From: a virus
IMG/VR virus record: IMGVR_UViG_3300030110_002923
Coordinates: 1 to 51,464 of that record
Direction: 5' to 3' (one strand)
Length of the DNA stretch: 51,464 bases
How positions within the stretch are numbered: the first letter of the stretch is position 1; each line of letters begins with the position of its first letter. The notes under the pieces are model-generated. The model was not told where the DNA came from and ran no database searches. It saw only the letters and a list, made by a program, of their open reading frames with translations. The translations under genes were made by a program, and so were the position numbers. Shown here piece by piece: positions 9,501-49,678 of this stretch.

Positions 9501-12500
9501 TATCCTTTAGCTGCTGCAAATTCAGCTCTAGACCTGTAAGGGTCAAAATTAGGTATATCAATTCTTCTTACATTCTTTTTAGCTGTAGGAGAGTATACCA
9601 TATTATTTATAAAAACATCCCATTCTGCTTCTATTTGCTCTTCTGTTCTAAAAGTTCTTAATTGACCTTCTTTAACATTATAGTCGCCAATTAATCTTTC
9701 ACCAGTTTGTTTAGCTGCAGATTTGTATACAATCATATGCACACCAGCATCTTTCATTTGCTGAGTTGCTTCTGGCCCAACAGAATGCATCATATACTTG
9801 CCTAATAAAGCACCTTTATTAACTTCTCCTTTAGCAGTATATTCAGGCGTATTGTCTACAATAAAAGACTTTTGTTGTCCAGAAGCTGGATGACCTGCGT
9901 CTTTATTAATAACATCTATATAATCATCTCTTACTAGTATAGCTCCATCTTGGTCTTCGCCTAATTGAGTACTTCTTGCCTTTAATACAGATTTTTTTAA
10001 AGCATCTGGTAGTAGGGGGTCATCTACTAACATATATTTTACATTACCTCTAGGAGACAAATCATCTAATATAATTTTTCCATTTTTATCTACAGCATTT
10101 TTAATAAAATCTTTACTACCACCATATCCATTTGTCATCCATATTTGATGTCTTTTATTAAACGCTACTGCACTACCTATAAATCCATCGCCCATTATCT
10201 TATTTATGTTCTCAGGCGTAAATTTGTATCCATTTAAAGACAAATCATATCTCATGTTAGATACTACCATTCTTTCAAAATCCTCTGGTTTTACACCATA
10301 CCAAAACTCCATACGCTTTTTTTCACTATTTAAGTTAGCGAGAATATTCTTATCTTTAGTTCCTCTTCTTATAGCGTTTATTAGCTGTCTGTATTGCAAT
10401 TTAATACCTGTAGTATTCTCACCTTTTAAAGCTGGATGTAATTTGGCAAATACTATTCTACCTTTATCTCCTTGTCCACCAAAAGGATATAAATTGTCTG
10501 ACTTATAAACTTTTCTTATAATATCGCCTATAATATTATCTGCAGCTTTTTCAGCATCTTCTTCTGTATATCTTCTTTTTGTAATAGGGTCTATTTCATT
10601 AAATTGCAAGTGCTTTGCTAATCTATTTAAAGGAACGTCTATAGTAAAGTTTCGTTTACTTTTTCTAGCTACAGTATCAAATATAACAATAGGACTTTTG
10701 CTAGCTCCTTTCTCAAGCTTTCCGCCTTCATTTAAATAAACTTCTTCCAAAATCTTAGGAGATTCTACTTGTCTTATTGACATACCTGTAGCAGTTGTAG
10801 GCCTGTTAGGATTTGTAAAACCTGGAGCTTCATTTGCTCCCCCAGTAGTTTTAATTTTTATAACTTGTTTGCCTAGGTTAGCTTCTCTAATCCATTTCCT
10901 TAATTCTAATTTTCCTTTTTCAGATAACTCGAATTTCTTATTATTTGTACTAAAAACTCTTTCCATAACTTTAACAGCTTGGTCTATATTTACATTTTTA
11001 TCACCTTTTTTAGAGTATTTTCTAACAATAGTATCTACTACTTTACCCATATCTAGCATACTATTTCTTTTACTCTGCCCAACACCATCTTTGTCCCATA
11101 GTTCTTTCAGATGATTATTAGAAAACATTTCTCCTTTTTTCATTAAAGTATTGTTTTGAGGAGTAGAACCTGTGTCAATATCATTTATAATAATACCACT
11201 TGTCATATCAATATACTGTGTAGATTCTAACCCTTTATGTTTAAACTGTATATCTTTATATATATCATCTATTTCTTTAGATAATTCTTTTTCTTGTTGG
11301 GCAAGCTCTCTTGTTCTAACTTTTCCTAAACTAGCATCTTTTAAATCAGCTCTTACGTCTTTTAAAAGAAGTTTCTTTTTATCTATTTGTCTATTTAACT
11401 CACCTACATTTTCTAAAGTTCTTTGATGCATTAACTTAGTTTCTTCTTCAGTCAAGCCTTTATCTTTAGTAGGAGTTTTCTTTTTTCCAAAAGTTGCATC
11501 AGCTACAGCTATCATAGCTTTATGTTCAGGGGACCCTGCTCGTATTTCTCTACTTCCTATTACAGCAGGATTTCTTCTTAATTTAGGGGTGTAGTTTATA
11601 GCCTTAAATCTATTGACTTCAGGAGTCCATCTAAACCAACTTTTTTCTGGAGGGTGATATACATAAACTTCTTGCAATCCTTTGTCTAAAGCCATTTGAA
11701 CAGCCCAACCAGTACCACCTTTTACTGTCCTTTTATTTCCTTCTAATTCAGCAACAGCGTATACAGAATTAGCACCTTTTATTTGAAAATAGTTTCTAGC
11801 TATTAATTCATAAGCCCAATCACCATATTTGGTTATTTCGCCTCTTTTTAAAGTTCTATTAGCTTCTTCTAATGCTGAACCAGCTTCTAATAATTCTTTG
11901 CTACTAACTCCTCTATCAACACCTTTTACATTGCCTTTTTTTAAAGCTTCAAAAAACTCTGGTATTGTTTTTCTATGAGCAGTAGTTTCTGGCATCATAT
12001 GTATAGTTGCAAAACCTTTTTTACTTAAAACGGTACTCCATAGTCTATCAGCCCCTTTAGCTCCTCCAGACAAAGCTACTCCTAAAGTATCATCAGCTTT
12101 ATATTTAGTTCTTTTTTGTATACCTCTTCTAATAGCAGACAAAGCTTTATACCCATCTGTAGTTAAATTTTCTTTAGGTATTTGGTCTTTTATGCCATGC
12201 AAGTCCATAAGAAGTTCTGCTTGAGCTAAGTTACTTTTTCTAGTACCATGCTCTATTTTGCCTAACTCTACCATTTCTTTTCTTACAATTTCAGGAAACT
12301 CTTCAAACCTTTCCCAATCTTTTACTTGTCTTTCATTATCAAGTTTAGGGTCTTTTCTCATAGCCTTCCTAAACTCTTTCATATTATTTACAGCTTGCAT
12401 TTTAAACCAAGGCATTTCTTTAGAGCCAAAATATGCCCCAGCCAAATACTCATATATTTGTTCGGGTGTTGTAGCTCCCCTAGCTGTAGTAGGAAGTCCC

Positions 12501-13270
12501 ATAAACAATGAACCAGCCAAACCTTTTATAAATTTATCTCCAGTAGTAGTACCAGGCACCACATTACCAATTATTCTAAAAACACCACCAGCAGCAGCGC
12601 CACCCATAAAACTATGCATCATTTGGTCAACGCCATCCCACACAGAAGATACTGCACTAGCAGCTCCTAAATGAAAAGCTCCTTCCATTATATGTGCGGC
12701 TTTGTCTTTTAAAAAGAATTTAGAAGCCTCATCTGCTGCTTTCCATCTAGAATTCCTAGCTCCTTGTAAAACAGGTCTAACAATATTCTTCTTTGCAAGT
12801 TTAGTTATTTTATCAGCGGCTAGCATAGGAATAGATTTTAGTTGAGTAAGGCCAACAGCAGTTCTAGCAAGCTGACTACCACGTTGAGCAGCTTTCATTA
12901 CGCCTAATGCTTTAAGTGGAGAACTTAGTATACCTGGAACAAATCCAGCCAAATGACCTATATTTCTAGCTACTGCTTCATATTCGTTATCAGGTGGGTC
13001 TGCTATTCTTAATGTTGTAAAACCTTCTATAAAGCCACCACCAGCTTGTTGTAGTGCTTCTAATATAGAAAAGTCCCCTTCATAAAAAGGAACATTATGA
13101 TACATAGCGTGATTTCTAAGTTCGTCTAATTGTTGTTCTTGGAATCTCTGAGGAGTTCTATCATAAGCTTTTATAAGCTCACGAGTTCTTTTAGCATCGT
13201 AAGTAGGCTGCCATTGCTGTTGTTGCTGATTTACCTGTTGCTGAGGTATTTGCTGTTGTGGTATAGCCAC
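3503..13270 (-). CDS. Giant virion-type protein with two-barrel RNA polymerase signature and SLOG domain, 3255 aa
   Basis: GTG 13270 follows GGAGGA by seven bases and nearly abuts the upstream gene. Residues 4-21 are Gln-rich and about 80-260 are Gly/Ala-rich membrane-active helices. Residues about 395-590 look like a SLOG nucleotide-binding domain (S401-G-G-A-K-G-A-D, later V-K-G-G-T-G-W-A-V). Around 1103-1120 is E-D-Q-D-G-A-I-L-V, like the beta-subunit barrel (E-D-A-I-L-I); K1183 and K1187 follow. R1560-V-P leads after 39 residues to A-D1599-L-D1601-G-D1603-E, the Mg-binding DxDGD of the beta-prime barrel (R425/D460 in E. coli, spacing 35). A further S-P-L-A-R-I-M segment starts at 1685. 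A hydrophobic helix lies near 3108-3122. I infer an RNA polymerase packaged in the virion and ejected, as in crAss-like phages; the domain call is from motif, not alignment. Confidence 0.8.
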   Translation of the reverse strand: MAIPQQQIPQQQVNQQQQQWQPTYDAKRTRELIKAYDRTPQRFQEQQLDELRNHAMYHNVPFYEGDFSILEALQQAGGGFIEGFTTLRIADPPDNEYEAVARNIGHLAGFVPGILSSPLKALGVMKAAQRGSQLARTAVGLTQLKSIPMLAADKITKLAKKNIVRPVLQGARNSRWKAADEASKFFLKDKAAHIMEGAFHLGAASAVSSVWDGVDQMMHSFMGGAAAGGVFRIIGNVVPGTTTGDKFIKGLAGSLFMGLPTTARGATTPEQIYEYLAGAYFGSKEMPWFKMQAVNNMKEFRKAMRKDPKLDNERQVKDWERFEEFPEIVRKEMVELGKIEHGTRKSNLAQAELLMDLHGIKDQIPKENLTTDGYKALSAIRRGIQKRTKYKADDTLGVALSGGAKGADRLWSTVLSKKGFATIHMMPETTAHRKTIPEFFEALKKGNVKGVDRGVSSKELLEAGSALEEANRTLKRGEITKYGDWAYELIARNYFQIKGANSVYAVAELEGNKRTVKGGTGWAVQMALDKGLQEVYVYHPPEKSWFRWTPEVNRFKAINYTPKLRRNPAVIGSREIRAGSPEHKAMIAVADATFGKKKTPTKDKGLTEEETKLMHQRTLENVGELNRQIDKKKLLLKDVRADLKDASLGKVRTRELAQQEKELSKEIDDIYKDIQFKHKGLESTQYIDMTSGIIINDIDTGSTPQNNTLMKKGEMFSNNHLKELWDKDGVGQSKRNSMLDMGKVVDTIVRKYSKKGDKNVNIDQAVKVMERVFSTNNKKFELSEKGKLELRKWIREANLGKQVIKIKTTGGANEAPGFTNPNRPTTATGMSIRQVESPKILEEVYLNEGGKLEKGASKSPIVIFDTVARKSKRNFTIDVPLNRLAKHLQFNEIDPITKRRYTEEDAEKAADNIIGDIIRKVYKSDNLYPFGGQGDKGRIVFAKLHPALKGENTTGIKLQYRQLINAIRRGTKDKNILANLNSEKKRMEFWYGVKPEDFERMVVSNMRYDLSLNGYKFTPENINKIMGDGFIGSAVAFNKRHQIWMTNGYGGSKDFIKNAVDKNGKIILDDLSPRGNVKYMLVDDPLLPDALKKSVLKARSTQLGEDQDGAILVRDDYIDVINKDAGHPASGQQKSFIVDNTPEYTAKGEVNKGALLGKYMMHSVGPEATQQMKDAGVHMIVYKSAAKQTGERLIGDYNVKEGQLRTFRTEEQIEAEWDVFINNMVYSPTAKKNVRRIDIPNFDPYRSRAEFAAAKGYTYDKKTDSFKPLNVVQQGGLEFTGGKIYELNPESVKYSTSVIQDPHMEQKQVLVKQLFTNIHQFASTPIDKYTIEDIFQETIKKNFDGNEVYNKVLEEYRLTKSEDKIDFLVENLEELSTPKLIKTLKTPGAERFAELALQRMLRIVEKDIEMSFQDGETTAEQRAERIRQFTEAVSPIDRLLKNSAIVGEEANAAGETGYPAFMHKFVRDYKASVLHNYFVKSVTRPKIENSLLARMRPYDKWMQKDFKELDTNDTIFYLDDAYRNTKIRLDNGKYKELGKLWDKEQNNPDFAKYFNALVLRVPMDSISGAHKLQFKGFTGRKGHGIMLNSKTMRALGGADLDGDEAFVYLGGKNKDNSGYGMKEAWLNAIDANKNEYYNKAQTHVEDNKNAVIQHGPYKGQTFAQVLTVGAGKGNPLKESKALYYSPLARIMASQGAVKGRDMLGLAVSQSQVMKSTFNALMEADGKKDVFTVFKRGKNGGTFRVTVTPKFGKKDLAYQREMVRAQTAFASDPMDEAGLREPSHFFKTMYDSYFNVKFEKYNPKSKKYFKLDKEPKNWSQGDYYGDRSDYNKAPSLLGAFKNMNSAYFGRNWSEGRNYSMDEVNHLASDIGMLSEKQKNTILPKIVDTLEGLDWSDNLFRRVDRGAIEQTYAEINDIVTDKKGKFGNWLKDAMNRSTFTVTYNEHIKANLAHELHDPAVRRKIALRDDPASLKEFLNIVKHSVWGKEFEGYGGKEARLAKLYTYKERLSILEQMNRQAEDFLSNDVATMATIKSVKRILEKERMPIKDLKSISNAVAKFKARSYLSRKERVQLDYDAIAGTAKDKEHIEFVNALLGIKKNLQDIQGDKRSTVWDQKQLDAKIRQYKDGLKNDAQRELFDHLFIGTLDRGDMSKVNRLIKALPQKKASPVFRELMNKIIKETSRTTQSRLAFNSEEISPIAIQNHLKSMNNVFNKIWTPLDKPTFKATTMGVENVLDRNPINEQNLADDLVMSAHKGEGYAGIKKGEVNAEDKAVITEIATILKRYNNKLGNNIPDLNEQMRGISAEVDPEGMGKDLNTFTKQDFVQVRNFLREAESGTWFQNLRKNPTPDIMKRYYGMFPTTVNRELMAYDIKWLKQKQWYLTKSGRIKEGYVRRPTYFLEMLMNQAHEANSLAIGKAEVLAKDIENQFVNISELKEGNALFQIAVGQAELGMKQSIDKRRNLESDMKEHYKLNYDESRAATEKEFNWPKLKDKEFTLLNDNNKRIQATGQEIVNGNKEKSLTGIKNKVAQRFESLFPLMAGDGTSINRYKTGKYFDANKTQPRMNWKLFVEDMTKSLERGDDIPINLGIDGMRNIQRSMMYDLAKTPEQKATYKSWKIKATRPMDYTYYWPHMFFDKRTSELNVKRTLDFIRNNPNLNEKQKKSRIQSLLMRHNTITGEWEFQNIQDFDKVDVIEITEGLKDIAKKRGKATETVKWTDMNTSFGSMMQREGHVGGWSKDLSVMNAYVRNLTSTYFKQMNQIMSRKTIHDAKERMTKKFGNKLASKWEKYFKLYVQGAMGQPDVIPKKWYDDPDMKLKGTPYAWFADSTVLDRVNKVREKLGIRESDLPKELKDFTFQDIKHWSNMEAKFELASLLAHPKSAVTNIFGGSLHTIQSAGHGAFMKARDMKYLKRINPNFNSLQDVENWVVKKGVVPEFMIHELGLGQDATTKRSIESFIGELSSKINSKEPIERKEVLSLGKKYKLSDRMMSVASKFMSIPERTLRRDAFMAHYIRAWERFGGAITDPEHPFLIEMGKKGVKATQFLYEAPQRPMFARTALGKVMSRFQLYAWNSTRFRNDIIREAARYGFKPGTSAYEKFERTMTIDLLVLALGNMFMYSLFDNALPQPLSWFQDTADWLFGNERDRERAFFGVLPTAIAPLQMITPPITRFPIAGIMEWAKDDYTKFSDYQVYTMFPFGRIVRDLVQPGKGLIENPSRLLEKMAGMPLRDLQKFSTERKKKIEEGVRYNQPKVGF

Positions 13271-40129: not shown

Positions 40130-40744
40130 CTACTTCTCCCACCAATTTTTCCAAGAATCTCTGAAATAGTTCATAGCACTACCCATAGTATCTTGCAGAC
40201 TATCCATCATATCATAATCTTGTGGTATTTCGCCTTCATAAGGATTAACTTCTCCTTGTTCTTGTATTAACTGGTCAATTACTCTTGCATCAGGCTTTCC
40301 TTCTTCATCAACCATTTGAAACATTTCTGGTGCTTGTCCAGGTTGTCTGTATTGTTCTAAGCCTTCTCCAGCTCTTTGTCCAGCTACATATTGTCTAAAT
40401 CTTTCAGTAGTCTTGGGTCCCATCATTCCATAGCCTGAATCACCTTCTTTCATTCCCATAAACTGTTTTTGAAAGTCTGCTACCGCTTCAGGGTCGTTAA
40501 CATCAAAATTCGCTGTATCAAATCTAGGCATATTTCTTTCGAAAGGTGTTGGTCCTTGTATACCATACGCTTCTGGTGGCATACCTGCTTCTTCAAAGCT
40601 CTGAGGCACCATTTGTCCAGTTGCTGTGTTAAATTTGTAAGGTATCTCCTTTCTTCCACCTGCAGGACCTTGAGTTGTATTGAAATTAGCGTTTGGGTTT
40701 GTCCCCCCATAAGGCTTGTATAATGGCGGTTTTCTGTTTGCCAT
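40130..40744 (-). CDS. Peptidoglycan-binding-like protein, first gene of the late block, 204 aa
   Basis: ATG 40744 has AGGAGA six bases upstream and is the first gene of the minus-strand block. Residues about 84-125 read V-A-D-F-Q-K-Q-F ... D-S-G-Y-G-M-M-G-P-K-T-T-E-R-F, the V-x-x-F-Q ... D-G-x-x-G-P-x-T pattern of PG_binding_1-type domains. The flanks are Pro/Gly/Gln-rich and disordered. A murein-binding role would match the lytic transglycosylase-like and HEAGH genes just downstream. The pattern match is partial. Confidence 0.55.
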   Translation of the reverse strand: MANRKPPLYKPYGGTNPNANFNTTQGPAGGRKEIPYKFNTATGQMVPQSFEEAGMPPEAYGIQGPTPFERNMPRFDTANFDVNDPEAVADFQKQFMGMKEGDSGYGMMGPKTTERFRQYVAGQRAGEGLEQYRQPGQAPEMFQMVDEEGKPDARVIDQLIQEQGEVNPYEGEIPQDYDMMDSLQDTMGSAMNYFRDSWKNWWEK

Positions 40745-40766
40745 GTGATTCTCCTAATTATTAAAA

Positions 40767-40924
40767 ATTTTACGTAAAATACACTATAATATAGCTCTAA
40801 ACTAAGCTATAATCCAAACAAAAAGATTATATATAGCCTGTATATATCGATTCTTTGTCTTTTATCTAGAATACACTAAGTATCGTTACTTACTATCTAT
40901 TACTTACTACGTAGTAAAATACAC
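40767..40924. promoter_or_regulatory. Operator-like palindromes and repeated AATACAC boxes in the divergent control region
   Basis: The region holds two perfect palindromes centred on ACGT: a 14-bp one at 40767-40780 (ATTTTACGTAAAAT) and a 12-bp one at 40905-40916 (TACTACGTAGTA). GTAAAATACAC follows each (40774-40784, 40914-40924), and a related AATACAC lies near 40870. A direct repeat, TTACTTACTA, occurs at 40886-40895 and 40900-40909. The repetition suggests sites for a regulator controlling the divergent early and late units. Confidence 0.5.
40788..40817 (-). promoter_or_regulatory. Candidate late promoter (minus strand)
   Basis: Reading the minus strand, TTGGAT (40817-40812) and TATATT (40793-40788) are separated by 18 bases, a sigma-70-like arrangement. 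The expected start would fall at the ACGT palindrome 40767-40780, about 40 bases before the first late gene. The -35 match is poor, so a phage-specific polymerase or factor may be the real reader. Confidence 0.3.
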
Positions 40925-40985
40925 CAAAAAATATATTTTGCAAGTGTTTTTTAAAAAAGGTGCCTAAATCACTGAAAAACAACGA

Positions 40986-41013
40986 TTTACGTTGAATTTT
41001 AAAAAAATATAAC
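40986..41013 (+). promoter_or_regulatory. Candidate early promoter (plus strand)
   Basis: TTTACG (40986-40991) and TATAAC (41008-41013) are 16 bases apart, a plausible sigma-70-like promoter. Transcription from about 41020 would run straight into the GC-rich three-way-junction element at 41039 and then the gene at 41212. Spacing and matches are acceptable but not strong. Confidence 0.35.
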
Positions 41014-41038
41014 AAGAATGTTTACACGAGATATATAC

Positions 41039-41129
41039 GATGCGGTACCCGCCCGTTTTTACGGCCCTCGGGGGTGCCGAGCCGTTAAAAACTGTAAGTA
41101 AGAACCACTTACACGGGTACTATCGCATC
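41039..41129 (+). ncRNA. GC-rich three-way-junction RNA element in the early leader
   Basis: The outer stem pairs GATGCG-GTACCCG (41039-41051) with CGGGTAC (41114-41120) and CGCATC (41124-41129), with a 3-base bulge. Inside are two hairpins with almost no linkers: 41055-41092 (GTTTTTACGG with CCGTTAAAAAC, inner CTCGG/CCGAG) and 41093-41113 (TGTAAGT/ACTTACA, loop AAGAACC). Such tight packing, in the most GC-rich spot of an AT-rich genome, indicates a selected RNA fold. No reading frame of note covers it. A put-like antiterminator, a stability element or a regulator are possible; none is shown. Confidence 0.7.
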
Positions 41130-41139
41130 CAGTTCCCCT

Positions 41140-41172
41140 TATCGCTTTGCGATACAAATCATTTTGATTTGT
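41140..41172 (+). promoter_or_regulatory. Two stacked hairpins upstream of the gene at 41212
   Basis: TATCGC-TTT-GCGATA (41140-41154) is followed directly by ACAAATCA-TTT-TGATTTGT (41154-41172). Both are perfect short hairpins with TTT loops, in the 5' leader between the three-way-junction element and the ribosome-binding site AAGGAG before ATG 41212. No T-run follows, so they are not terminators. They may shape leader RNA or influence translation. Confidence 0.5.
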
Positions 41173-41211
41173 TGTTTATATTTACATTTCATAACATAAG
41201 GAGTATTAATC

Positions 41212-41481
41212 ATGTCAACAGAAACACCAAAACAAAAACTAATTTCTTACATCAATTCAGCAAAAATCGTGCTGAATAAATGCAAGAAAGGAGTTATGAT
41301 TTGGGATACGTCCAAAGTCACTAATCTTCAGCATCTAACGCAGTTAGTGGAAGATTGTGATTGGACAGTATACGAATTGCCTAAGTCATTCCACCCTACC
41401 ACTGGCCAAGTACAGGGTGGTGGAATTTGGTTAGGCCCTAGAAAAGTCACATCTGCAGAGGAAGCACTCGCAGATATGTAA
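41212..41481 (+). CDS. Hypothetical early protein, 89 aa
   Basis: ATG 41212 has AAGGAG about nine bases upstream. The product begins MSTETPKQKLISYINSAK, is helical at the front, then has beta-type segments around D-C-D-W-T-V-Y-E-L-P and G-G-G-I-W-L-G-P. No family recognised. It is the first gene of the right arm, follows the structured leader and is closed by an intrinsic terminator, so it is a single-gene unit probably expressed early and strongly. Confidence 0.7.
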   Translation: MSTETPKQKLISYINSAKIVLNKCKKGVMIWDTSKVTNLQHLTQLVEDCDWTVYELPKSFHPTTGQVQGGGIWLGPRKVTSAEEALADM

Positions 41482-41493
41482 CCACTTTTCAAG

Positions 41494-41544
41494 CCACAGT
41501 GTACTATGGGAGCAAAACGACCATAGTATTGCTGTGGTTTTTTA
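41494..41544 (+). terminator. Intrinsic terminator after the 89-residue gene
   Basis: CCACAG-TG-TACTATGG (41494-41509) pairs with CCATAGTA-TTG-CTGTGG (41521-41537), closing a GAGCAAAACGA loop. It is followed by TTTTTTA. The stem plus U-tract is the standard rho-independent form, starting 12 bases after the stop at 41481. Confidence 0.85.
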
Positions 41545-42038
41545 TTAGTTAAGTAATACATAATGGTAAATGTTAAAGATAATTTATTTAATTATAAATA
41601 GTCCTAGGAGAATGGTGGAGGACTCTAAACAAAGCTACCGTTGTGATAGTATATTAGGTTTGCTAGTACCTAATAGAATTCATATTCTCCCGAAGGAGTA
41701 GCCGATAACACAGGGGGTTTAATGCTGTGTAACTAGCAAATAATTTAATTTAGAGAGGTATATTAAACGCCTGCAGTGCACAAAAATGTCGAGATAAAAG
41801 CAGATAATGGCCCAGGTCTCTTGACAGTTGGCTGATGGACTATACAGCATCAGATACCTCTCTAATTATAATTAATTAATTTAATTGTGTCTTGGAAATG
41901 CTTAGAAACGCAGTATTTAGCTAGTATACATAGCTATTTATTGTAATCTATTAATATTTTTACACTCGATGTTAAAGTAGCATTTTACACCAAACAAGGC
42001 ACAATTATCAGTTTAAAAATAACAAGGAGTAATAAATA
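41545..42038 (+). other. Non-coding stretch with several RNA folds
   Basis: About 490 bases without an acceptable gene. In order: GGAGAAT (41607-41613) can pair with ATTCTCC (41684-41690) around an 8-bp hairpin TATTAGGT/ACCTAATA (41652-41674); CTCC-CGAA-GGAG (41687-41698) is an alternative; ACACAG/CTGTGT (41708-41730) forms a hairpin; and a strong closed element follows at 41750-41865 (separate entry). The last 170 bases are AT-rich and end with AAGGAG before ATG 42039. No tRNA fold was found. Confidence 0.6.
41750..41865 (+). ncRNA. Three-way-junction RNA element closed by a perfect 12-bp stem
   Basis: TTAGAGAGGTAT (41750-41761) is fully complementary to ATACCTCTCTAA (41854-41865). Directly against the closing stem is CTGATG-GACTATACAG-CATCAG (41832-41853). 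Between them TGTCGAGA (41787-41794) pairs with TCTC-TT-GACA (41817-41826). The layout (long outer stem, two inner hairpins, about 116 bases) repeats that at 41039-41129 and 50541-50641 without sharing sequence. CTGATG is not followed by A-GAAA, so this is not a hammerhead ribozyme. Confidence 0.68.
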
Positions 42039-42167
42039 ATGAAGGAATATTATATTAAAAATATGTTAAATAACATAGTAACAGTAGTAGTATCTAAGAA
42101 TAGATATAATGCTATTGAAAAAGGGATAAAATATTTTGGTGTTAATCAAGTTAGAATTATCCAGTAG
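42039..42167 (+). CDS. Small hypothetical protein, 42 aa
   Basis: ATG 42039 has AAGGAG at 42024-42029, nine bases upstream, and the frame stops at TAG 42165-42167. The product starts MKEYYIKNMLNNIVTVVV and has a beta-alpha-beta look (V-V-V strand, Y-N-A-I-E-K-G-I-K-Y-F helix, V-R-I-I-Q strand). A small folded domain is plausible; no family is recognised. It is followed by a terminator-like hairpin. Confidence 0.7.
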   Translation: MKEYYIKNMLNNIVTVVVSKNRYNAIEKGIKYFGVNQVRIIQ

Positions 42168-42210
42168 GTAATGCATTGCCTATTAAAAATACACAAATGA
42201 TAACTATAAT

Positions 42211-42246
42211 TGAGCGGAGTTTAGTGTGTTCTTCGCTCATTTTATT
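42211..42246 (+). terminator. Terminator-like hairpin after the 42-residue gene
   Basis: TGAGCGGAG (42211-42219) pairs with CTTCGCTCA (42231-42239), allowing one G-U, around an 11-base loop, followed by TTTTATT. This is a plausible intrinsic terminator separating the 42-residue gene from the next unit. Confidence 0.65.
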
Positions 42247-42288
42247 AACTAAATATAAGACAAAGAAATTAATTAAAGGAGCATATAA

Positions 42289-42522
42289 ATGCAGAAAGAA
42301 GTAGATAGATTTGAAGAAGATTTAAAAGGTATTATAGATGTTAAGTTATACAAATTAATAGCTTATTTAGAGATATTAAGAGAGCAAATTGGCTCAGGTA
42401 ATAGTACAGATGATTTAAATCATTATTATCAAATACTAGGTAATGCTAGGTATGAGATAAAGAAATTGTTAGGTCATAATATGGTTTCTACAACTTATAA
42501 AGTTAGTGGAGATGAATTATGA
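42289..42522 (+). CDS. Small helical protein, 77 aa
   Basis: ATG 42289 follows AAGGAG by about seven bases. The product is mostly charged helices (R-F-E-E-D-L-K-G-I-I-D, A-Y-L-E-I-L-R-E-Q-I, H-Y-Y-Q-I-L-G-N-A-R-Y-E-I-K-K-L-L) and may form a helical bundle. Its stop TGA overlaps the next ATG (ATGA), coupling the two genes. Family not recognised. Confidence 0.7.
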   Translation: MQKEVDRFEEDLKGIIDVKLYKLIAYLEILREQIGSGNSTDDLNHYYQILGNARYEIKKLLGHNMVSTTYKVSGDEL

Positions 42523-42686
42523 AGAATAAAATAAAGAATTATTTAAAGGATTTAGGATTAAATATGACTCTTTATAGTGGATATTTTACAACTGATACAA
42601 AGATAGTAGCAAAGATAGACAATACTATAATTTATATCAATTATGATTTTAAAGGTCATAGAGCATATCCACTAAGTAGTCAATAA
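42519..42686 (+). CDS. Small hypothetical protein, 55 aa
   Basis: ATG 42519 overlaps the previous stop. The 55-residue product begins MKNKIKNYLKDLGLNM and has a central beta section (T-K-I-V-A-K-I-D-N-T-I-I-Y-I-N-Y-D-F) and ends L-S-S-Q. No family recognised. The structured RNA element at 42698 begins 12 bases after its stop. Confidence 0.65.
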   Translation: MKNKIKNYLKDLGLNMTLYSGYFTTDTKIVAKIDNTIIYINYDFKGHRAYPLSSQ

Positions 42687-42697
42687 GATATTCCTTG

Positions 42698-42784
42698 AGG
42701 AGCGAGCATTATTCAGCCTATTCCTTGGCTATGTTTACCTCTTATTAATACAGAGGGTTTCGGCTTATTAGGTAGCTCGCTCCT
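42698..42784 (+). ncRNA. Structured RNA element closed by a perfect 10-bp stem
   Basis: AGGAGCGAGC (42698-42707) is the exact complement of GCTCGCTCCT (42775-42784). The enclosed 67 bases can form AGCC/GGCT and CCTCT/AGAGG hairpins, and TACCT can pair with AGGTA next to the closing stem. The stem is GC-rich compared with the surroundings, and the element lies just upstream of the 90-residue gene and the ubiquitin-like cassette. It has no T-run, so it is not a terminator. The closing stem also buries AGGAG. Confidence 0.65.
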
Positions 42785-42815
42785 AAATTTATAATTATTA
42801 ATTAATGGAGATATT

Positions 42816-43088
42816 ATGGGAAGAGTTAAAGAAACTGATGATGATGATAGTGTATTTAAAAAAGCTATAGATGAAAGAGCTTTTATAAATATGGAAGAAA
42901 TAGAATGGATGTCTAATTGTTGTTTTGAACCGCCATACAGAGATATACTTGATACTGGCGAATATGACAAAGGATTAGATATTGGTAGAGAATTTGATAC
43001 ACAACCAATCGGTTTATGTAGTAAATGTAAAGAAGGCGCTATATTTTATATGGTAGAGGAGGACAGTGATGAATTTCTCGGAAGATAA
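42816..43088 (+). CDS. Zinc-binding protein, 90 aa
   Basis: ATG 42816 has GGAG seven bases upstream. After a very acidic start (T-D-D-D-D-S), S-N-C-C-F-E-P-P-Y and G-L-C-S-K-C-K-E-G-A-I-F provide a four-cysteine zinc site in a short ribbon. Its 3' end overlaps the 42-residue gene, which overlaps the Ubl gene, so it is the first gene of the cassette transcript. A partner or adaptor role with the conjugation system is only an inference; one zinc site does not make a RING E3. Confidence 0.65.
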   Translation: MGRVKETDDDDSVFKKAIDERAFINMEEIEWMSNCCFEPPYRDILDTGEYDKGLDIGREFDTQPIGLCSKCKEGAIFYMVEEDSDEFLGR

Positions 43089-43197
43089 AATAGAATTATA
43101 CATTGAAAACATAATAAAGTGTAGAAAACAGAAAAAAGCGATATTGCAAAATAAAAAGGCTAAGGAGGCCAAAATAAAATGGCAAATGATACAATAA
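43069..43197 (+). CDS. Lys-rich small protein overlapping the Ubl gene, 42 aa
   Basis: ATG 43069 has AGAGGAGG shortly upstream. The 42-residue product begins MNFSEDKIELYIENIIK and has ten lysines, mostly in a basic helix (C-R-K-Q-K-K, then N-K-K-A-K-E-A-K). It overlaps the 90-residue gene by 20 bases and the Ubl start by 19, and carries the Ubl ribosome-binding site AAGGAGG within it. It could be an accessory or a lysine-bearing acceptor for the Ubl; that is speculation. Confidence 0.5.
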   Translation: MNFSEDKIELYIENIIKCRKQKKAILQNKKAKEAKIKWQMIQ

Positions 43198-43391
43198 CAA
43201 TCAACTTGTTACAAAACGGAGAGTTCAGTCCTAGAGATACAGCATCTACAACAGTAGGTGAGTTAAGGAACGAACTAGAAATACCAGCAGATGCAAATGT
43301 GATGGTAGGTGGAACTATCAGGCAGAACGACTTTGTTCTGGAAGATGGTGCGTTAGTTGCTTATGCAAGCAATAATAAAGTTGGTGGATAA
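43179..43391 (+). CDS. Ubiquitin-like (beta-grasp) modifier ending in Gly-Gly, 70 aa
   Basis: ATG 43179 follows AAGGAGG (43162-43168). The order of predicted elements is beta-beta-alpha-beta-beta: T-I-T-I-N-L-L, a second strand, T-V-G-E-L-R-N-E-L, V-M-V-G-G-T-I, then L-E-D-G-A-L-V-A-Y-A-S. The protein ends N-N-K-V-G-G. The V-x-G-G-x-I ... L-x-D-G-x-x-V-A-Y ... G-G ending is like MoaD/ThiS and bacterial Ubls. With Gly-Gly already at the C-terminus, no processing is needed before adenylation. It opens the Ubl-E2-JAMM-E1 run. The fold is inferred from pattern and context. Confidence 0.8.
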   Translation: MANDTITINLLQNGEFSPRDTASTTVGELRNELEIPADANVMVGGTIRQNDFVLEDGALVAYASNNKVGG

Positions 43392-43401
43392 TAGATAATA
43401 A

Positions 43402-43461
43402 TATAAAGCCCTGTGAGTCTCACGTGAGTATGGAATACGACTACCGAGCATGGGCTTTATA
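43402..43461 (+). repeat. Long inverted repeat between the Ubl and E2-like genes
   Basis: TATAAAGCCC (43402-43411) is the exact complement of GGGCTTTATA (43452-43461). The 40-base interior contains the palindrome CTCACGTGAG. It lies in the 98-base gap between the Ubl stop and the preferred start of the E2-like gene. A hairpin here could set the ratio of Ubl to E2 mRNA or translation. No T-run follows. Confidence 0.65.
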
Positions 43462-43489
43462 CGATAAAATAGATAGCGAAGGAGAATAT

Positions 43490-44956
43490 ATGATAGAAAT
43501 ATATGACGGTAGAACAGAAAGAAAAGTAAATGAAATAGATTTTATTAAGAATTTAAGTCAAGAGCAACTAAACAAAGTAGCTGTTGGCCCTCAAGATAAA
43601 TTATTAGATTTAATTAAATACTTTAATGATGTATTCAGACATCAAGGTATTGAAAGTCAAATAGATGTTACTAATAAATGGTCTTGGAAACGTGGCTCTT
43701 ATGATATTATGAAAAACTATTTAACTAATAAATTAGAATTAAACAAAAAAGCTATGTCAATGTCTAAAATAATAGAAAGAGCTCAACATAATGCTAGTTT
43801 CTTAGGTTATATGCGTAAGAAAACATATCAATTAGAATCAGAAAGACGCAAACTTATAAATATGGGTATTCCTAGAGATGTAGATACTGATAAATTTCAA
43901 AGTATGTGCATAGATATGGCAGAGAAAATAGAAAATGCTTGCAATAATGCTAATAACATTATAGAAAATGTAAACTTAAAGCCATGGATAGGTCTAAATA
44001 ACTGCGATGAAATAATACTTTATCTGGATATTATGCTAACAGGCTTGAATATGAGTATAGTTCAAGATTCAACAGTGATAGAAACTAACAAATTAAAACC
44101 AATTAGAATAATGGTAAATGTTGATTTTAGGAAACTATTAAATAATCAAAGATATGATTTGAATTTTAAAGGCAAATATATAGATGATTATCATATGTTT
44201 CCTTATTTAAATTCAGAAACTTATTATCGTAATTGGGGTAATGTATGCTTAGATAGACATCACGATGATTTTAGAAGAGCATTCAAAAAGTTAGACTTTG
44301 TTAGTATGTCAATGATATTGATACAATGGGCTCAATATTATAATGTTGGACACTCTAATCCATATAGTCAACCATTTCTTACACACTATGGTATGCCTAA
44401 AGACAAAAGTCAATCTTATAAGCAATTGTTTGTAGCTGGTACAGTTCAAAGTGCTTGCCAAACAACTCAGAAAAAGATGACTCAAGATTCTTCTGGAATA
44501 GATAGGCTTGTATCTAGCAAAAAGTTATGTCAAGATATTGAATGTCAATATATAGGTAATTGTGAATTTTACGAAATATATAATCGAAAAATAAATCTAT
44601 ATAATAAACATAGATATTTAGGCGATGCTATATATATGGAACTTGCAAATTATGTGACAAATAATGATTTTGACCAACAAACAATATCAAATATGTTTGA
44701 AACAATAACTGGACAATATATTTCTTATACCACTGATGAAGGTGTACTTTCAAAAGAAGAATATCTAAATAGTTGGTATGATAAGTTTATGATATATTTT
44801 GCAACAACATACGAAAAAAACGCTAATGCTTATTTATATGATTATTTAGTAAATAATGGATTGTTAGAGAAAGCAGAAATAAAAACAGAGAATATAGACA
44901 CAGATAATATAAAACAGCAAATGATGGCTTGGGCAGCATCAGAAGGAGTAAGGTAA
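43490..44956 (+). CDS. E2 ubiquitin-conjugating-like protein, 488 aa
   Basis: ATG 43490 has GAAGGAG five bases upstream and is preferred over GTG 43424, which lies inside the inverted repeat. Residues about 195-290 resemble the E2 core: a beta section (R-I-M-V-N-V-D-F, Y-D-L-N-F-K-G-K-Y), H-M-F-P-Y, then R-N-W-G-N-V-C253-L-D, a spacer and a hydrophobic helix ending N-V-G-H-S-N-P-Y-S. This parallels F/Y-P ... G-x-x-C-L-D ... helix ... P-N in E2 enzymes, making Cys253 the candidate thioester residue. The N-terminal about 190 residues are helical and the C-terminal part has a Cys cluster (C-Q-D-I-E-C-Q-Y-I-G-N-C). Its stop overlaps the JAMM start. The call rests on motif and operon context. Confidence 0.68.
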   Translation: MIEIYDGRTERKVNEIDFIKNLSQEQLNKVAVGPQDKLLDLIKYFNDVFRHQGIESQIDVTNKWSWKRGSYDIMKNYLTNKLELNKKAMSMSKIIERAQHNASFLGYMRKKTYQLESERRKLINMGIPRDVDTDKFQSMCIDMAEKIENACNNANNIIENVNLKPWIGLNNCDEIILYLDIMLTGLNMSIVQDSTVIETNKLKPIRIMVNVDFRKLLNNQRYDLNFKGKYIDDYHMFPYLNSETYYRNWGNVCLDRHHDDFRRAFKKLDFVSMSMILIQWAQYYNVGHSNPYSQPFLTHYGMPKDKSQSYKQLFVAGTVQSACQTTQKKMTQDSSGIDRLVSSKKLCQDIECQYIGNCEFYEIYNRKINLYNKHRYLGDAIYMELANYVTNNDFDQQTISNMFETITGQYISYTTDEGVLSKEEYLNSWYDKFMIYFATTYEKNANAYLYDYLVNNGLLEKAEIKTENIDTDNIKQQMMAWAASEGVR

Positions 44957-45894
44957 TGAAGTTAGAAGAAGTGTTTTACATAAAAGAAAAAGACTGGTAT
45001 CAGTTACAAGGTTGGGCTACAATAGCTTATGAAGAAGATAAAAACGAAATATCTGGATTAATGACAGCAGTACCACAAGAAGACGGCAGATTCAAATTAG
45101 GAGATGTAAGGATTCTTAAACAAAAGAACTCTGGTACTAATACTGAATTAGATGCAGATGCTGTTGCTGAATATACTATGAAGTTTGGTATGAAGTATAA
45201 TAATCCAAATATGAAGTTTGTTTGGTGGCATTCACATCATACTATGGGAGCATTCTGGTCAGGAACTGATGAAAATGAGATAGATGAATGGAAGAACAAT
45301 AGTTTTTCTTTGGCTTTAGTTATAAATCTTAAGGAGGAGTATAAATTCAGAGTTAGTGTATGGAATAACAATGGATTGCCAATAGAAGAACATTTTGATA
45401 CCACTCTTACTATTGAAAGACCTCAGCCTAAAGTTAAAATAACAGATGCTATGAAAGTAGAGTATGAAAATCTTTGTTCTAATCTTCATCAAACTGTTGT
45501 TGGAAATGCAAATATATGGGGAGGTCATTGGGGTTATAACAGAATTAACACAAACCCTAGACAGCTAACATTAGGACAAGACAAAGAGTTAGAATATGAA
45601 AAAGCATATGCAAAAGCTTATGAATTATTAGAGTCAATGCAAGATGATTTCATAAACGGAACTCTTAAATTAAAAGAATACAAAAAAGAAATAAAATCTT
45701 TTAATAAAGAATGTTCTAATAGAAAATACCCATTTAAAGCTAAAGTTATAAAAGGTAATAGTACTGCAATAATGAATAAGCTTATGACTTTAATGCCAAA
45801 CGAATTGTTCGAATGGGATGATAATAGGATAAAAGATAAGTATGAAGAACGTGAATTTCAAAGAAACTATGGAGGATATGCAGAATGGCTATAA
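44956..45894 (+). CDS. JAB/JAMM metallopeptidase (deubiquitinase-like), 312 aa
   Basis: ATG 44956 overlaps the previous stop (TAATG) and has GAAGGAG upstream. The JAMM metal and catalytic residues are all present: E31 in N-E-I-S-G, then W-W-H92-S-H94, seven residues, S102-G-T-D105. This is the exact H-x-H-x7-S-x-x-D zinc site of deubiquitinating JAMM enzymes. The roughly 180-residue C-terminal extension is unrecognised and helical. Since the Ubl already has a free Gly-Gly, the likely job is removing Ubl from targets rather than maturing it. It overlaps the E1-like gene by 10 bases. Confidence 0.9.
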   Translation: MKLEEVFYIKEKDWYQLQGWATIAYEEDKNEISGLMTAVPQEDGRFKLGDVRILKQKNSGTNTELDADAVAEYTMKFGMKYNNPNMKFVWWHSHHTMGAFWSGTDENEIDEWKNNSFSLALVINLKEEYKFRVSVWNNNGLPIEEHFDTTLTIERPQPKVKITDAMKVEYENLCSNLHQTVVGNANIWGGHWGYNRINTNPRQLTLGQDKELEYEKAYAKAYELLESMQDDFINGTLKLKEYKKEIKSFNKECSNRKYPFKAKVIKGNSTAIMNKLMTLMPNELFEWDDNRIKDKYEEREFQRNYGGYAEWL

Positions 45895-46553
45895 ATATGA
45901 GAAGTAGAGGACTTGTAGATAACTTAAACAAATTCAACTTTCATATATTGGGTTGCGGTGCTATAGGTAGTGCCGCAGCTATCCAATTATGTAGGATGGG
46001 TGCAACTAATTTTGCTTTATATGATAATGACAAAGTAGATACAGCTAACATAGGCGTATCACAGTACACAATGTACGATGTAGATTATCCTAAAGTAGAT
46101 ATGTTACACGGAAAGTTAAAAGATATAAGTATTGATTTAAAAGTTCAATGTGTTGATGAAAAGTTTATCAATTATATACATATGAACAATGATGACATAA
46201 TTATATTAGGTTTTGACAGTATGCAATCTAGAATGGATGCAGTAAAAGCTATAAACAACTGGCAAGGATGTAAACCATATGCTTTAATAGATGGTCGTAT
46301 GGGTGCAGAACATTATCAACAATATGTTCTATTAAGACCTACGTTAAAAGACTATAAAAAGATATGGTATTCTGACGAGAATGGCAGTGAAGAACCTTGC
46401 AATATGAAAGCTACTAGTTATTGTAGTAATATGAGTGGTAGTTTTATAGCAAATGCAGTAAGAAAAATAGTCAAAGAACAACCTTACGAGGATTTTGTCT
46501 CTTTTCATTTTCCTACTATGTCGATAGAAAAAAATAGTTGTATATTTAAATAA
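45885..46553 (+). CDS. E1/ThiF-like adenylating enzyme, 222 aa
   Basis: ATG 45885 has GGAGGA eight bases upstream. The Rossmann ATP-binding loop is I-L-G23-C-G-A-I-G28-S, followed by L-Y-D47-N-D49-K-V-D-T-A-N-I-G-V-S-Q, the E1/ThiF D-x-D ... N-x-x-x-x-Q pattern. Later, G-F-D-S-M-Q-S-R and C172-N-M-K-A-T-S-Y-C180 give two candidate thioester cysteines in the usual region. The protein is just an adenylation domain, like bacterial E1s. It is the last gene of the cassette and is followed by a GNRA hairpin. Confidence 0.88.
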   Translation: MAINMRSRGLVDNLNKFNFHILGCGAIGSAAAIQLCRMGATNFALYDNDKVDTANIGVSQYTMYDVDYPKVDMLHGKLKDISIDLKVQCVDEKFINYIHMNNDDIIILGFDSMQSRMDAVKAINNWQGCKPYALIDGRMGAEHYQQYVLLRPTLKDYKKIWYSDENGSEEPCNMKATSYCSNMSGSFIANAVRKIVKEQPYEDFVSFHFPTMSIEKNSCIFK

Positions 46554-46632: not shown

Positions 46633-47304
46633 ATGTCACTAAAAAAAGTAAAAAGAAAAGCTATATCAAACGACCCTAAAGTAATGTTATTATATGGAGC
46701 TCCTAAAGTAGGTAAAACTACTATTTTGAGTCAATTAGAAGATTGTTTAATAATTGATACAGAGCAAGGTGCTAATATGATAGAAGGCTATATAGAGTCT
46801 GTAAACAATAGAGAAGATTTGATTACGCTTTTAAGAAAGGCTCAAGAAGGCCACGACTATAAGTATGTAGCAATAGATACTATAGATAAAGTAGCTGAAT
46901 GGGCAGAAGAAGCTGTATGTAGCGAAGAACAAGTATCAGCTGTACAAGACTTAGCATTTGGCAAAGGCTTTGCAATGGTAAGAGAAAAAGTTCTGAATAC
47001 AGTAAAAGCAGTCAAACAAATATTTCCTCATGTAATTATCATCGGACATAGGAAATGGGCGAGAGCCGTGGTAGACAGTAAAGCTATAGTAGAACCAGAA
47101 AGTCTAGATTTAACAGGTAAGTTAAAGAATATGTTAATGGCAGACTGTGATGCTATAGGCTATGTTTATCGAGATGATGAAAAAGGCAAGCTAATGATAT
47201 CATTTAAAGCAAATGAAGCGTTAGAAGCTGGTAGTAGAAGTCCTCATCTGAGAGGCAAAGACATCGAGTTAAAATGGAAAAGTATCTACAAAGGAGATAA
47301 ATAA
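46633..47304 (+). CDS. Sak4-like RecA-family ATPase (recombination), 223 aa
   Basis: ATG 46633 has AAGGAGG upstream. Walker A is Y-G22-A-P-K-V-G-K28-T-T, followed by L-I-I-D-T-E-Q-G and a Walker B-like Y-V-A-I-D-T-I-D-K. V-I-I-I-G-H-R-K-W and D-C-D-A-I-G-Y-V-Y are typical of the Sak4/AAA_24 group, truncated RecA-like phage proteins that help anneal single strands with an SSB partner. The next gene, starting at the last base of its stop, is that likely partner. Confidence 0.82.
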   Translation: MSLKKVKRKAISNDPKVMLLYGAPKVGKTTILSQLEDCLIIDTEQGANMIEGYIESVNNREDLITLLRKAQEGHDYKYVAIDTIDKVAEWAEEAVCSEEQVSAVQDLAFGKGFAMVREKVLNTVKAVKQIFPHVIIIGHRKWARAVVDSKAIVEPESLDLTGKLKNMLMADCDAIGYVYRDDEKGKLMISFKANEALEAGSRSPHLRGKDIELKWKSIYKGDK

Positions 47305-47915
47305 TGGCGATATTCAAACCCGAAGTTGCAGAATTTAGCAACGATAACAATAAGTTCTTAGGCATAAATAAATTTGCTATAATGCATTTCGAAAATAAGT
47401 CAGGTATGTTTGATTGGGCTGACCTATACATAGAAGTGGAAGTTAAACAAGAACACAGTGATTACAATAGAAAGTTACAAATAAAAGGCTCATTCGAGAA
47501 AGATTCATCAGGCAATATAACTGGAGGTAGTGTATTAAAAAGACTATATACTTTCTTTGAAGCTATAGGTTGCACTGCTGGAATCAATGTAAAAGGCGAA
47601 TGGGAAGATGCAGAAGGCAATAAAATAGAGGATATATGTGATTATTTATCAACTAGATTTATAGCTAGCTCTAATTCAGATTATGAGCCTACATCATATG
47701 ACTATATTGCTTATTTCTATAAAGAACAACCTAAAAAGCCTGGTGCTAAAGCTTATACTACGGTATGGCCTAAAGTATATAGGTATAGCGAAGACAATCA
47801 AAAGAAATTACAAAGTGATATCGATTGGTTGAAAGGCAAAGGTTATCTTAAAGAGTTAACAGATGAAGTTAAAACTGCTCCAGAAATGAATGGTAATGGT
47901 TTAGCTAATCTATGA
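47304..47915 (+). CDS. SSB-like partner protein, 203 aa
   Basis: ATG 47304 overlaps the previous stop (TAATG). The N-terminal about 150 residues are beta-rich (W-A-D-L-Y-I-E-V-E-V-K-Q, L-Q-I-K-G-S-F, I-N-V-K-G-E-W), with aromatic residues suitable for stacking on DNA bases, and Sak4-type ATPases are usually adjacent to such SSB/DUF669-like proteins. The C-terminus is polar. It overlaps the primase-helicase by 4 bases. Assignment is mostly from context. Confidence 0.62.
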   Translation: MAIFKPEVAEFSNDNNKFLGINKFAIMHFENKSGMFDWADLYIEVEVKQEHSDYNRKLQIKGSFEKDSSGNITGGSVLKRLYTFFEAIGCTAGINVKGEWEDAEGNKIEDICDYLSTRFIASSNSDYEPTSYDYIAYFYKEQPKKPGAKAYTTVWPKVYRYSEDNQKKLQSDIDWLKGKGYLKELTDEVKTAPEMNGNGLANL

Positions 47916-49678
47916 ATTATGTAGAGATAGCTAGAGGCACACCTTTTAATAGAGGTATGATTATTCCTGTAAACAAATTGCATGCATATATGAATCCAAA
48001 TGAGGCTTTATATCGCAGTGTATATCTGTATGATGAATCAGCTGTTGAATATGTAAAAGACAAAGGTAGTTTGAAGAATTACTTTGGTGTTAGATATATT
48101 GACAAGATTCCTGTAGATATAGACAAGCAAGACAGGAGCAATGAAAGAACTTTAGATATCTTGAGAGGTACTATCCTAGAGCTAGAAGAAGCTGACATTA
48201 GCAGTCGGAGCTATCAAGCTTACTTTTCTGGCTCTGGATATCACCTTATTCTTTCTGGGGAGTTGTTTAATTTTAAGTCTGGTACAGATTTACCATTTAT
48301 AGTCAAACAAACTATGAAGAAGTTGTTGCCTGGAATAGATTCTAGTATTTACATGAGAACTGGAATCTATAGGCTTCAACATACGTTAAATCAAAAAACA
48401 GATTTATTTAAAATACCTTTGACAAATGATGAGGTATTAAACAAAGACCCTAAAGAAATCTTTGAGTTAGCTAAAAGTTCTAGATTAGATTTTCAATATC
48501 ATATATTAGAAGCTAATGGAGAGCTAGAAAAAAGAGTAGTAACTGAGGTTCCAGATATTAGAGTATTTAACAAAGTATCAGAACCTAACAAAATAATACC
48601 TTGTGTTCAATCTATGCTTAATAATGGAGCAAGAGAAGGCAGTAGGCATCTTACAGCTATGAGAATCATTAGCCATTTTAAAAGACACGGTATACCTAGT
48701 CATTATGCAAAAGTATCTATGTTGCATTGGAATAACAAAAGTATGCCAGAATCAGCTATTATGGAGATGGTAGAGAATGTTTATAATAGAAATTATAAAT
48801 ATGGTTGTCAAGATACTATTATGCTAGAGCATTGCAAAACACAATGTATACACTTTTCTAGAAAAGATTATTTAGTAGATATTAAATCATCTGATGAAAT
48901 GCAAGGAGAGTTGCAAGAAAGATTAACTACTGATTTTAGTGGTAAAACAATAGATTTGGGAAGAGCATTAGGCTTAGACGTAGAATCTACTATTTATCCA
49001 GGCGAGTTAGTAACAATCTTTGGTCCAACTGGTTCTAACAAGACTACATTTGCACAAAACTTAGCATTAGGCGTAGATTTTGTAAATGATAAAATTGTCA
49101 AAGAATGGCAAATACCTACGTTATTCTTAAGTTTAGAGCTATCTTCTTGGTATATGCACAGAAGACATTTGCAAATAGTTTCTAGCAAAAGTAAAGAAGA
49201 AGTAAACAACAATCATGAAGCTTTATATCAGTCTCATAAAGACGAATTAGAGCATATTATGATACAAACAATATCTCCAACTTTAGATAAGATTTATGAA
49301 AAAGTCAGAGAATTGCAGCCACAATTAGTAATCGTAGATTATATAGATTTAGTAGACACACCTGTTAGTTACAGAGGTGAATACGAAAAAATAAAATATA
49401 TATCTCACGGATTGTCTAATATGGCTGTAAATAATGACTTGATTGTAATACAGATATCTCAAGTAAGTAGAGAATATAGCCGAAACGAAGTGTTAGATTT
49501 ATATGCTGGTAAGGGTAGTGGTGCAATAGAAAATGCATCAAGAAAAGTTATTGGATTAAATGGTCAATCAAAGACTCCTAAAAGAGCTGTGAAACTATTT
49601 AAAAATACTGATGGCGAACTATTTGACACACATGTAGAATGGACACCTAGTTTCAGATTAAGGAGAGTGAATGCGTAA
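47912..49678 (+). CDS. Primase-helicase fusion, 588 aa
   Basis: The N-terminal third looks like an archaeo-eukaryotic primase: P-V-D69-I-D71-K, then Y-F-S106-G-S-G-Y-H111-L-I-L, then R-x-G-I-Y-R-L-Q-H. These supply the metal-binding DxD and the sxH of the nucleotide site. The C-terminal third is a DnaB/RecA-like helicase with Walker A G371-P-T-G-S-N-K377-T, L-S-L-E-L, Walker B L-V-I-V-D476-Y-I-D, and V-I-Q-I-S-Q-V-S-R. A cysteine-bearing linker joins them. It would open and prime the replication fork; no polymerase is encoded, so the host enzyme is needed. Confidence 0.82.
   Translation: MNYVEIARGTPFNRGMIIPVNKLHAYMNPNEALYRSVYLYDESAVEYVKDKGSLKNYFGVRYIDKIPVDIDKQDRSNERTLDILRGTILELEEADISSRSYQAYFSGSGYHLILSGELFNFKSGTDLPFIVKQTMKKLLPGIDSSIYMRTGIYRLQHTLNQKTDLFKIPLTNDEVLNKDPKEIFELAKSSRLDFQYHILEANGELEKRVVTEVPDIRVFNKVSEPNKIIPCVQSMLNNGAREGSRHLTAMRIISHFKRHGIPSHYAKVSMLHWNNKSMPESAIMEMVENVYNRNYKYGCQDTIMLEHCKTQCIHFSRKDYLVDIKSSDEMQGELQERLTTDFSGKTIDLGRALGLDVESTIYPGELVTIFGPTGSNKTTFAQNLALGVDFVNDKIVKEWQIPTLFLSLELSSWYMHRRHLQIVSSKSKEEVNNNHEALYQSHKDELEHIMIQTISPTLDKIYEKVRELQPQLVIVDYIDLVDTPVSYRGEYEKIKYISHGLSNMAVNNDLIVIQISQVSREYSRNEVLDLYAGKGSGAIENASRKVIGLNGQSKTPKRAVKLFKNTDGELFDTHVEWTPSFRLRRVNA

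Follow-up and report, generated by a model that had tools for sequence, protein, structure and literature searches.

A large E2-like protein in a phage replication operon and its probable place in a ubiquitin-like conjugation system

Introduction

Ubiquitin-like cascades are best known as eukaryotic systems or as antiviral defences of bacterial hosts. The window analysed here is a whole virus record of IMG/VR (51,464 bases). Terminase, portal, capsid and tail proteins are encoded on its minus strand, and its plus strand carries a replication block; a single minus-strand open reading frame at 3503-13270 encodes 3,255 residues and takes up about one fifth of the record. At 43490..44956 on the plus strand lies a reading frame of 488 amino acids, for which an original prediction had proposed a central E2-like domain flanked by extra N- and C-terminal regions that might make it a combined E2/E3. 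The locus raises three questions: whether this protein is a conjugating enzyme, in which system it would act, and what its extra regions might contribute.

Results

The 488-residue reading frame is preceded by a Shine-Dalgarno-like GAAGGAG and its Met start is shared by the closest relative (85% identity); an alternative in-frame GTG start lies upstream at 43424 and would give 510 amino acids. The AlphaFold2 model of the 488-residue protein (mean pLDDT 76) places a helix at residues 133-157, strands at 161-212, Cys253, and helices at 255-266 and 270-282, in this order. When the model was compared with the PDB by VIA-align, 50/50 rows listed were E2/UBC enzymes, aligned over model residues 138-306 (43901..44407, plus strand), and the best match was UBE2S (6s96_B; Z 7.2, rmsd 3.4 A, 127 residues), which falls under the caution level of Z = 8 for this method. 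A UBC topology is thus present in the model, and since the alignment spans residues 138-306, the core is larger than the residues 195-290 originally assigned to it: the core itself stood, its limits were too narrow.

Foldseek of the full 488-residue model against the PDB gave no significant match (weak UEV/TSG101 matches, best E2-fold E 0.8), Pfam returned no E2 family for the protein at E <= 1, and the 25 families with the most matches among the 44 E2 members did not include an E2 profile. Scans of the E2 protein with Pfam, NCBIfam and PHROGs were uninformative, a PDB profile search with the 44 E2s produced helical chance matches only, and tblastn against 50,697 phage records gave zero matches for the E2 and for the JAB enzyme described below. 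Because many bacterial E2s are recognisable by structure alone, the missing sequence profile was not taken as exclusion; it holds the naming of the protein at "E2-like".

Cys253, the predicted catalytic cysteine, is located in the motif GNVCLD (codon 44246..44248, plus strand). It was kept in 54/54 ungapped rows of an alignment of 55 homologues and was invariant in a 44-row alignment, so that its expected conservation was borne out. The family consensus HPYIS...YGxVCLD...W.QYYNxxxSNPY runs parallel to the UBC pattern HPN...GxICLD...LLxxPNP. At the HPN position P238 occurs in 53/55 and Y239 in 55/55 homologues, Tyr standing where canonical HPN has Asn, and the His is kept in about half of the members with Phe in most others (FPY in the window protein). 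An hhalign comparison with four UBC sequences was weak (E 0.036), placing YGxVCLD on NGxICLD with the cysteines in register. The phage protein resembles the eukaryotic UBC E2s UBE2S, UBE2A and UBE2D in its predicted core fold (about 120-136 aligned residues), in GxVCLD around the cysteine and in the NP after the next helix, whereas identity is 7-14% and the phage E2 has the Tyr for Asn of HPN, added residues and a helix after the Cys, and extensions of 137 residues at the N-terminus and 182 at the C-terminus. Fold, conservation and operon context support an E2-like domain within a larger protein as originally proposed, and this convergence of moderate evidence, rather than one decisive score, indicates that the 488-residue protein is very likely an E2.

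The original prediction omitted the Ubl gene at 43179-43391 and the JAB and E1 genes, and with these around it the isolated E2 becomes a complete cascade. The E2 gene takes second place in a cassette with the order Ubl, E2, JAB, E1; the JAB gene overlaps the E2 stop and the E1 gene (start 45885) begins inside the end of the JAB gene (45894), which suggests one translationally coupled unit. Scans of IMG/VR that used first the E2 protein and then alignments as queries gave 34 E2 loci, and a scan with the more conserved E1 gave 354 relatives; 80 of these were retained. Ubl, E2, JAB and E1 stood in this order on one strand in 47/47 distinct loci holding all four genes. Downstream on the plus strand, outside the cascade, follow a Sak4-like ATPase (46633-47304), a co-directional 203-residue protein (47304-47915) and a primase/DnaB-like helicase (47912-49678), and this block of co-directional replication genes (46633..49678) is conserved behind the cassette: among loci of sufficient length, the Sak4-like gene followed the cassette on its strand in 63/76 and the replicative helicase gene lay downstream in 51/51.

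The first cassette gene (43179..43391, plus strand) encodes a predicted Ubl modifier of 70 amino acids with the C-terminus -NNKVGG (GG codons 43383-43388). Its AlphaFold2 model (pLDDT 84) has the beta-beta-alpha-beta-beta-beta order of a beta-grasp, which together with the exposed C-terminal GG provides the features of a modifier. Foldseek matched it to the ThiS-like 1ryj (E 2.9e-4) and to the archaeal ubiquitin of C. subterraneum (6fno, 8e-4), VIA Z was 8.4 and 8.3 to 1ryj and to ThiS 2lek, respectively, and Pfam ThiS matched 9/31 Ubl members (best 1.3e-4). K67, G69 and G70 were invariant in 31 aligned Ubls. Some relatives extend past the GG (for example GGQA and GGKTI), as would be expected of a precursor, and a peptidase would therefore be needed.

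The third gene (44956..45894, plus strand) encodes a JAB/JAMM isopeptidase-like protein of 312 amino acids, in which E31 and the stretch HSHx7SxxD (residues 92-105, nt 45229-45270) satisfy the JAMM motif E...HxHx7SxxD, with E31, H92, H94, S102 and D105 invariant in 11 rows. It matched Pfam Prok-JAB at 5.5e-4, under the family cut-off, and its best PDB profile match was Rpn11 (7e-4).

The fourth gene (45885..46553, plus strand) encodes an E1-like enzyme of the ThiF family of 222 amino acids, with a GCGAIG nucleotide-binding loop and D47, D49, N55, K70 and D111. It matched Pfam ThiF at 4.4e-17 (62.5 bits against a cut-off of 28.1), PDB profile matches included MccB, UBA5, MoeB, ThiF and UBA1, the best-scoring NCBIfam model was ThiF, and the best match in PADLOC was to Cap2-type CBASS E1-E2 models (5e-15). 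The Arg of NxxRQ is missing (NIGVSQ in the window, N[IVL]GVS[QE] in the family), while the equivalents of K70 and D111 and the N-terminal Arg6 are kept, Arg6 being invariant. The candidate catalytic cysteine, Cys172 (46398-46400, plus strand), is invariant and sits at what we take to be roughly the catalytic-Cys position of UBA5-type E1s. A scan of genome contigs with the E1 did not find a close cellular relative. At L007:4024-4727 the E1 gene is broken into two adjacent frames, by nature or by assembly error.

Immediately 5' of the Ubl gene, at 42816-43088 on the plus strand, a small acidic protein with a zinc-ribbon-like CC...CxxC pattern was observed; relatives of about 48 amino acids occupy the equivalent place in six other loci, and an over-strict pattern search for a small CC..CxxC frame upstream of the Ubl matched 5/40 loci. 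Long closing stems occur in the intergenic regions 41592-41702, 41748-41868 and 42692-42790 (z -2.4, -3.2 and -3.0 against shuffles), which are possibly structured RNAs; 41478-41552 is terminator-like (z -5.2), and an Rfam search of 40700-43500 matched no family.

Within the cassette the E2 diverges fastest, the median identity to the window over 46 loci being 75% for the Ubl, 62% for the E1, 55% for the JAB and 31% for the E2. Among large contigs chosen by their terminase, window-type Ubl, E2 and E1 occurred together in 10/18, and window-type E2 and Ubl were both absent in the remaining 8/18; judged from the terminase position, six of these eight contigs appear to end before the cassette slot. 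Two of the eight have a divergent E1, and their cassette slot is occupied by a variant composed of a Ubl that ends in NKSG or NKSGK, an E2 with AQHPH[VI]SxGxAC, a JAB with HSHHTLGGGAFFSGTD, and an E1. A profile comparison aligned HPHxSxGxxC of the variant with HPYIS..VCLD with the cysteine in register (E 0.0023), and the shared slot suggests replacement or rapid divergence in place. These variant cassettes (L193:4178-7673 and L194:507-4190) are highly divergent and belong to phages with a terminase about 76% identical to that of the window, and a radical-SAM-like reading frame (CLYRCSYCYM; L193:2958-3821) adjoins one of them.

A parallel form was found in cultured phages. Genes gp79-gp76 of crAss001 (L106:3480-7890) and the cassette of the Flavobacterium Fpv phages, whose genes are annotated merely as hypothetical, metalloprotease or ThiF, share with the window the order of a Ubl-like protein, a protein of about 400 residues with invariant HSH and Cys, a JAB (HSHxxMxxFFSGxD) and an E1; similar cassettes occur in L104, L105 and L107-L110 (crAss001-like and Fpv phages). 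Primase, Sak4 and helicase genes adjoin the crAss copies as they do the window cassette, whereas the crAss Ubl differs in ending with KxKSG and then an extension. The crAss001-like and Fpv cassettes were also observed near uracil-DNA glycosylase genes, besides those for primase and Sak4-like proteins. Neither the E2 profile compared with the E2-like proteins of crAss and Fpv phages (E 0.13) nor the variant-cassette E2 profile compared with the crAss E2-like proteins reached significance. Structure searches of viral models with the window E2 recovered close relatives, a viral protein of 420 amino acids (E 2e-4) and, with weaker scores, uncharacterised crAss-like proteins; the E2 candidate of the Flavobacterium Fpv phages has a length of 420 amino acids.

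Conservation of the E2 was highest at residues 33-72 and 236-306 and lowest at 307-345 and 361-445. The N-terminal extension (residues 1-137, 43490..43900, plus strand) contains the conserved motif GPQD...IDVTNKWNWKPG with N46 and W66 invariant; it is mostly helical in the model, as had been claimed, but has two strands at its start. The C-terminal extension (residues 307-488, 44408..44953, plus strand) is the least conserved part and holds a four-Cys site, C323, C347, C352 and C358 (codons starting at 44456, 44528, 44543 and 44561). The cysteines of the previously described C-x4-C-x4-C cluster are therefore real, but their spacing is C347-x4-C352-x5-C358 and a fourth cysteine, C323, belongs to them. 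All four co-occur in 36/44 rows, whereas C323, C347 and C358 are missing together in 8/44 rows that form one clade (support 99/98) and keep C352; such a joint loss would be the pattern expected of a metal site. Cys352 (44543-44545) is invariant in all 44 rows, including this clade. The E2s of L092 and L101 carry C-terminal ECKNCPVIDNC and ECVNCPIKEDC, respectively, a spacing that in our view resembles CxxCPVxxxC of WhiB-type Fe-S proteins.

Discussion

We presume that the 488-residue protein acts as the E2 in a complete, phage-encoded and reversible ubiquitin-like conjugation system (probability about 0.86). This reading is drawn from the fold and tail of the Ubl, the E2-like fold with its invariant cysteine, the JAMM motif, the E1 family and the gene order, as seen in sequences and predicted models; from these we infer every chemical step, the substrate and the biological purpose. 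The JAB enzyme would trim the residues after the Gly-Gly of the Ubl, although the window Ubl already ends in GG, and the ThiF-type E1 would adenylate the Gly-Gly end and probably hold the Ubl as a Cys172 thioester. The Ubl would then move to Cys253 of the E2, which would couple it to target proteins through their amino groups, and the JAB enzyme may remove it again. The N- and C-terminal extensions of the E2 probably bind partner and substrate proteins, and a separate E3 may therefore be unnecessary. The location of the cassette by replication genes, here and in crAss001-like phages, is the only clue to its function; because the cassette heads the phage replication operon, its most likely targets are phage replication and recombination proteins, or host proteins that act on phage DNA replication and recombination. 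That the substrates are replication proteins specifically is a tentative suggestion.

A rather unlikely alternative use of the same genes is as a weapon of defence or counter-defence, Bil-like or CBASS-like, against competing phages or host immunity. Bacterial Ubl-E2-JAB-E1 operons (BilABCD) are found among antiviral defences (PMC11354881), and the E1 scores best in PADLOC with CBASS E1-E2 proteins. Against this use, the family has a fixed gene order and a fixed place beside the helicase and Sak4-like genes, whereas defence cargo is usually scattered, and the crAss001-like cassettes likewise lie beside primase, helicase and Sak4 genes.

The cassette follows the four-gene logic of known operons and, by comparison, would be filed as none of them. 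It shares with BilABCD the set of Ubl, E2, JAB/JAMM peptidase and E1; in the summary of PMC11354881, BilA consists of two Ubl domains, BilB carries a CEHH motif and BilD combines two adenylation domains with a Cys domain, whereas the phage Ubl is a single 70-residue domain, the E1 has 222 residues and one adenylation domain, the E2 has 488 residues with HPY/FPY...VCLD, and the cassette lies in a phage replication operon. The two Ubl domains of BilA and the two adenylation domains of BilD were not found in the phage cassette, and BilABCD membership was rejected. Operon type 6d of Iyer et al. 2006 (PMC1779556), known from bacterial genomes, contains a stand-alone Ubl, JAB, E1, an E2 without the classical His, and an alpha-helical protein; in both, a small Ubl with C-terminal glycine, the JAB, the E1 and the E2 are each encoded by a gene of their own, while the phage E2 is of 488 residues and the cassette viral. 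CBASS Cap2 E1-E2 fusions also comprise E1 and E2 parts, whereas the phage has E1 and E2 in separate genes and a dedicated Ubl, with a CD-NTase absent among the neighbours. PRTRC membership was rejected as well (PRTRC_A 15.7 bits against a cut-off of 101.8; PRTRC_ThiF 24.8 against 144.75). In the literature searched, of which coverage was partial, a complete phage-encoded cascade of this kind was not described.

Within the preferred reading of a conjugation system, the E2/E3 question concerns the extra regions. A combined E2/E3 role of the 488-residue protein is a plausible hypothesis, and extra regions that might serve substrate choice would fit the low conservation of residues 307-345 and 361-445 and the status of the E2 as the fastest-evolving gene. 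The stricter version seems to us doubtful: the C-terminal half would contain a further module for catalysis or substrate binding, in which either Cys352 would be the second acyl acceptor of a HECT/RBR-like relay or the four cysteines would form a metal-bound substrate reader. It draws on the retention of Cys352 in 44/44 rows even where the other three cysteines are lost, on a C-terminal half that is the most variable E2 region, and on the fact that a separate E3 was not recognised among the conserved neighbours. However, known E3 domains were unmatched (RING, U-box and HECT in Pfam, for the window E2 and the 25 commonest families of the 44 members), and a single conserved Cys can have a structural role. 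A RING has eight metal ligands, for which the four conserved cysteines of the C-terminal site are too few; a Zn or Fe-S site would suit these cysteines better.

Least probable among the rivals, and in our judgement improbable, is a sulphur-carrier system in which the Ubl would be a ThiS/MoaD-like carrier, the ThiF-type enzyme the adenylate maker, the JAB a trimmer and the 488-residue protein an accessory or sulphur acceptor: the Ubl fold is nearest to ThiS-like proteins with a Pfam ThiS match and the top NCBIfam model of the E1 is ThiF, but rhodanese, cysteine desulphurase and biosynthetic enzymes were not found among the conserved neighbours, and the combination of a UBC fold, an invariant Cys and a JAMM peptidase is what Iyer 2006 (PMC1779556) proposed for conjugation systems.

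It is a highly speculative extension, which we hold to be very improbable as a whole, that widespread phages control their own DNA replication by this cascade with E2 and E3 in one protein, the Ubl passing from Cys253 to Cys352 and on to the substrate. More generally, a complete cascade fixed in phage replication operons would imply that protein tagging serves the phages' own purposes. The cassette is spread over hundreds of uncultivated phage contigs, and its parallel form is carried by cultured crAss001-like and Flavobacterium phages. With its 70-residue Ubl, 222-residue E1, large E2 and JAB, it offers a small system in which to see how E2 and E3 functions are combined or separated, and the cultured phages with the parallel cassette allow this E2/E3 question to be tested.
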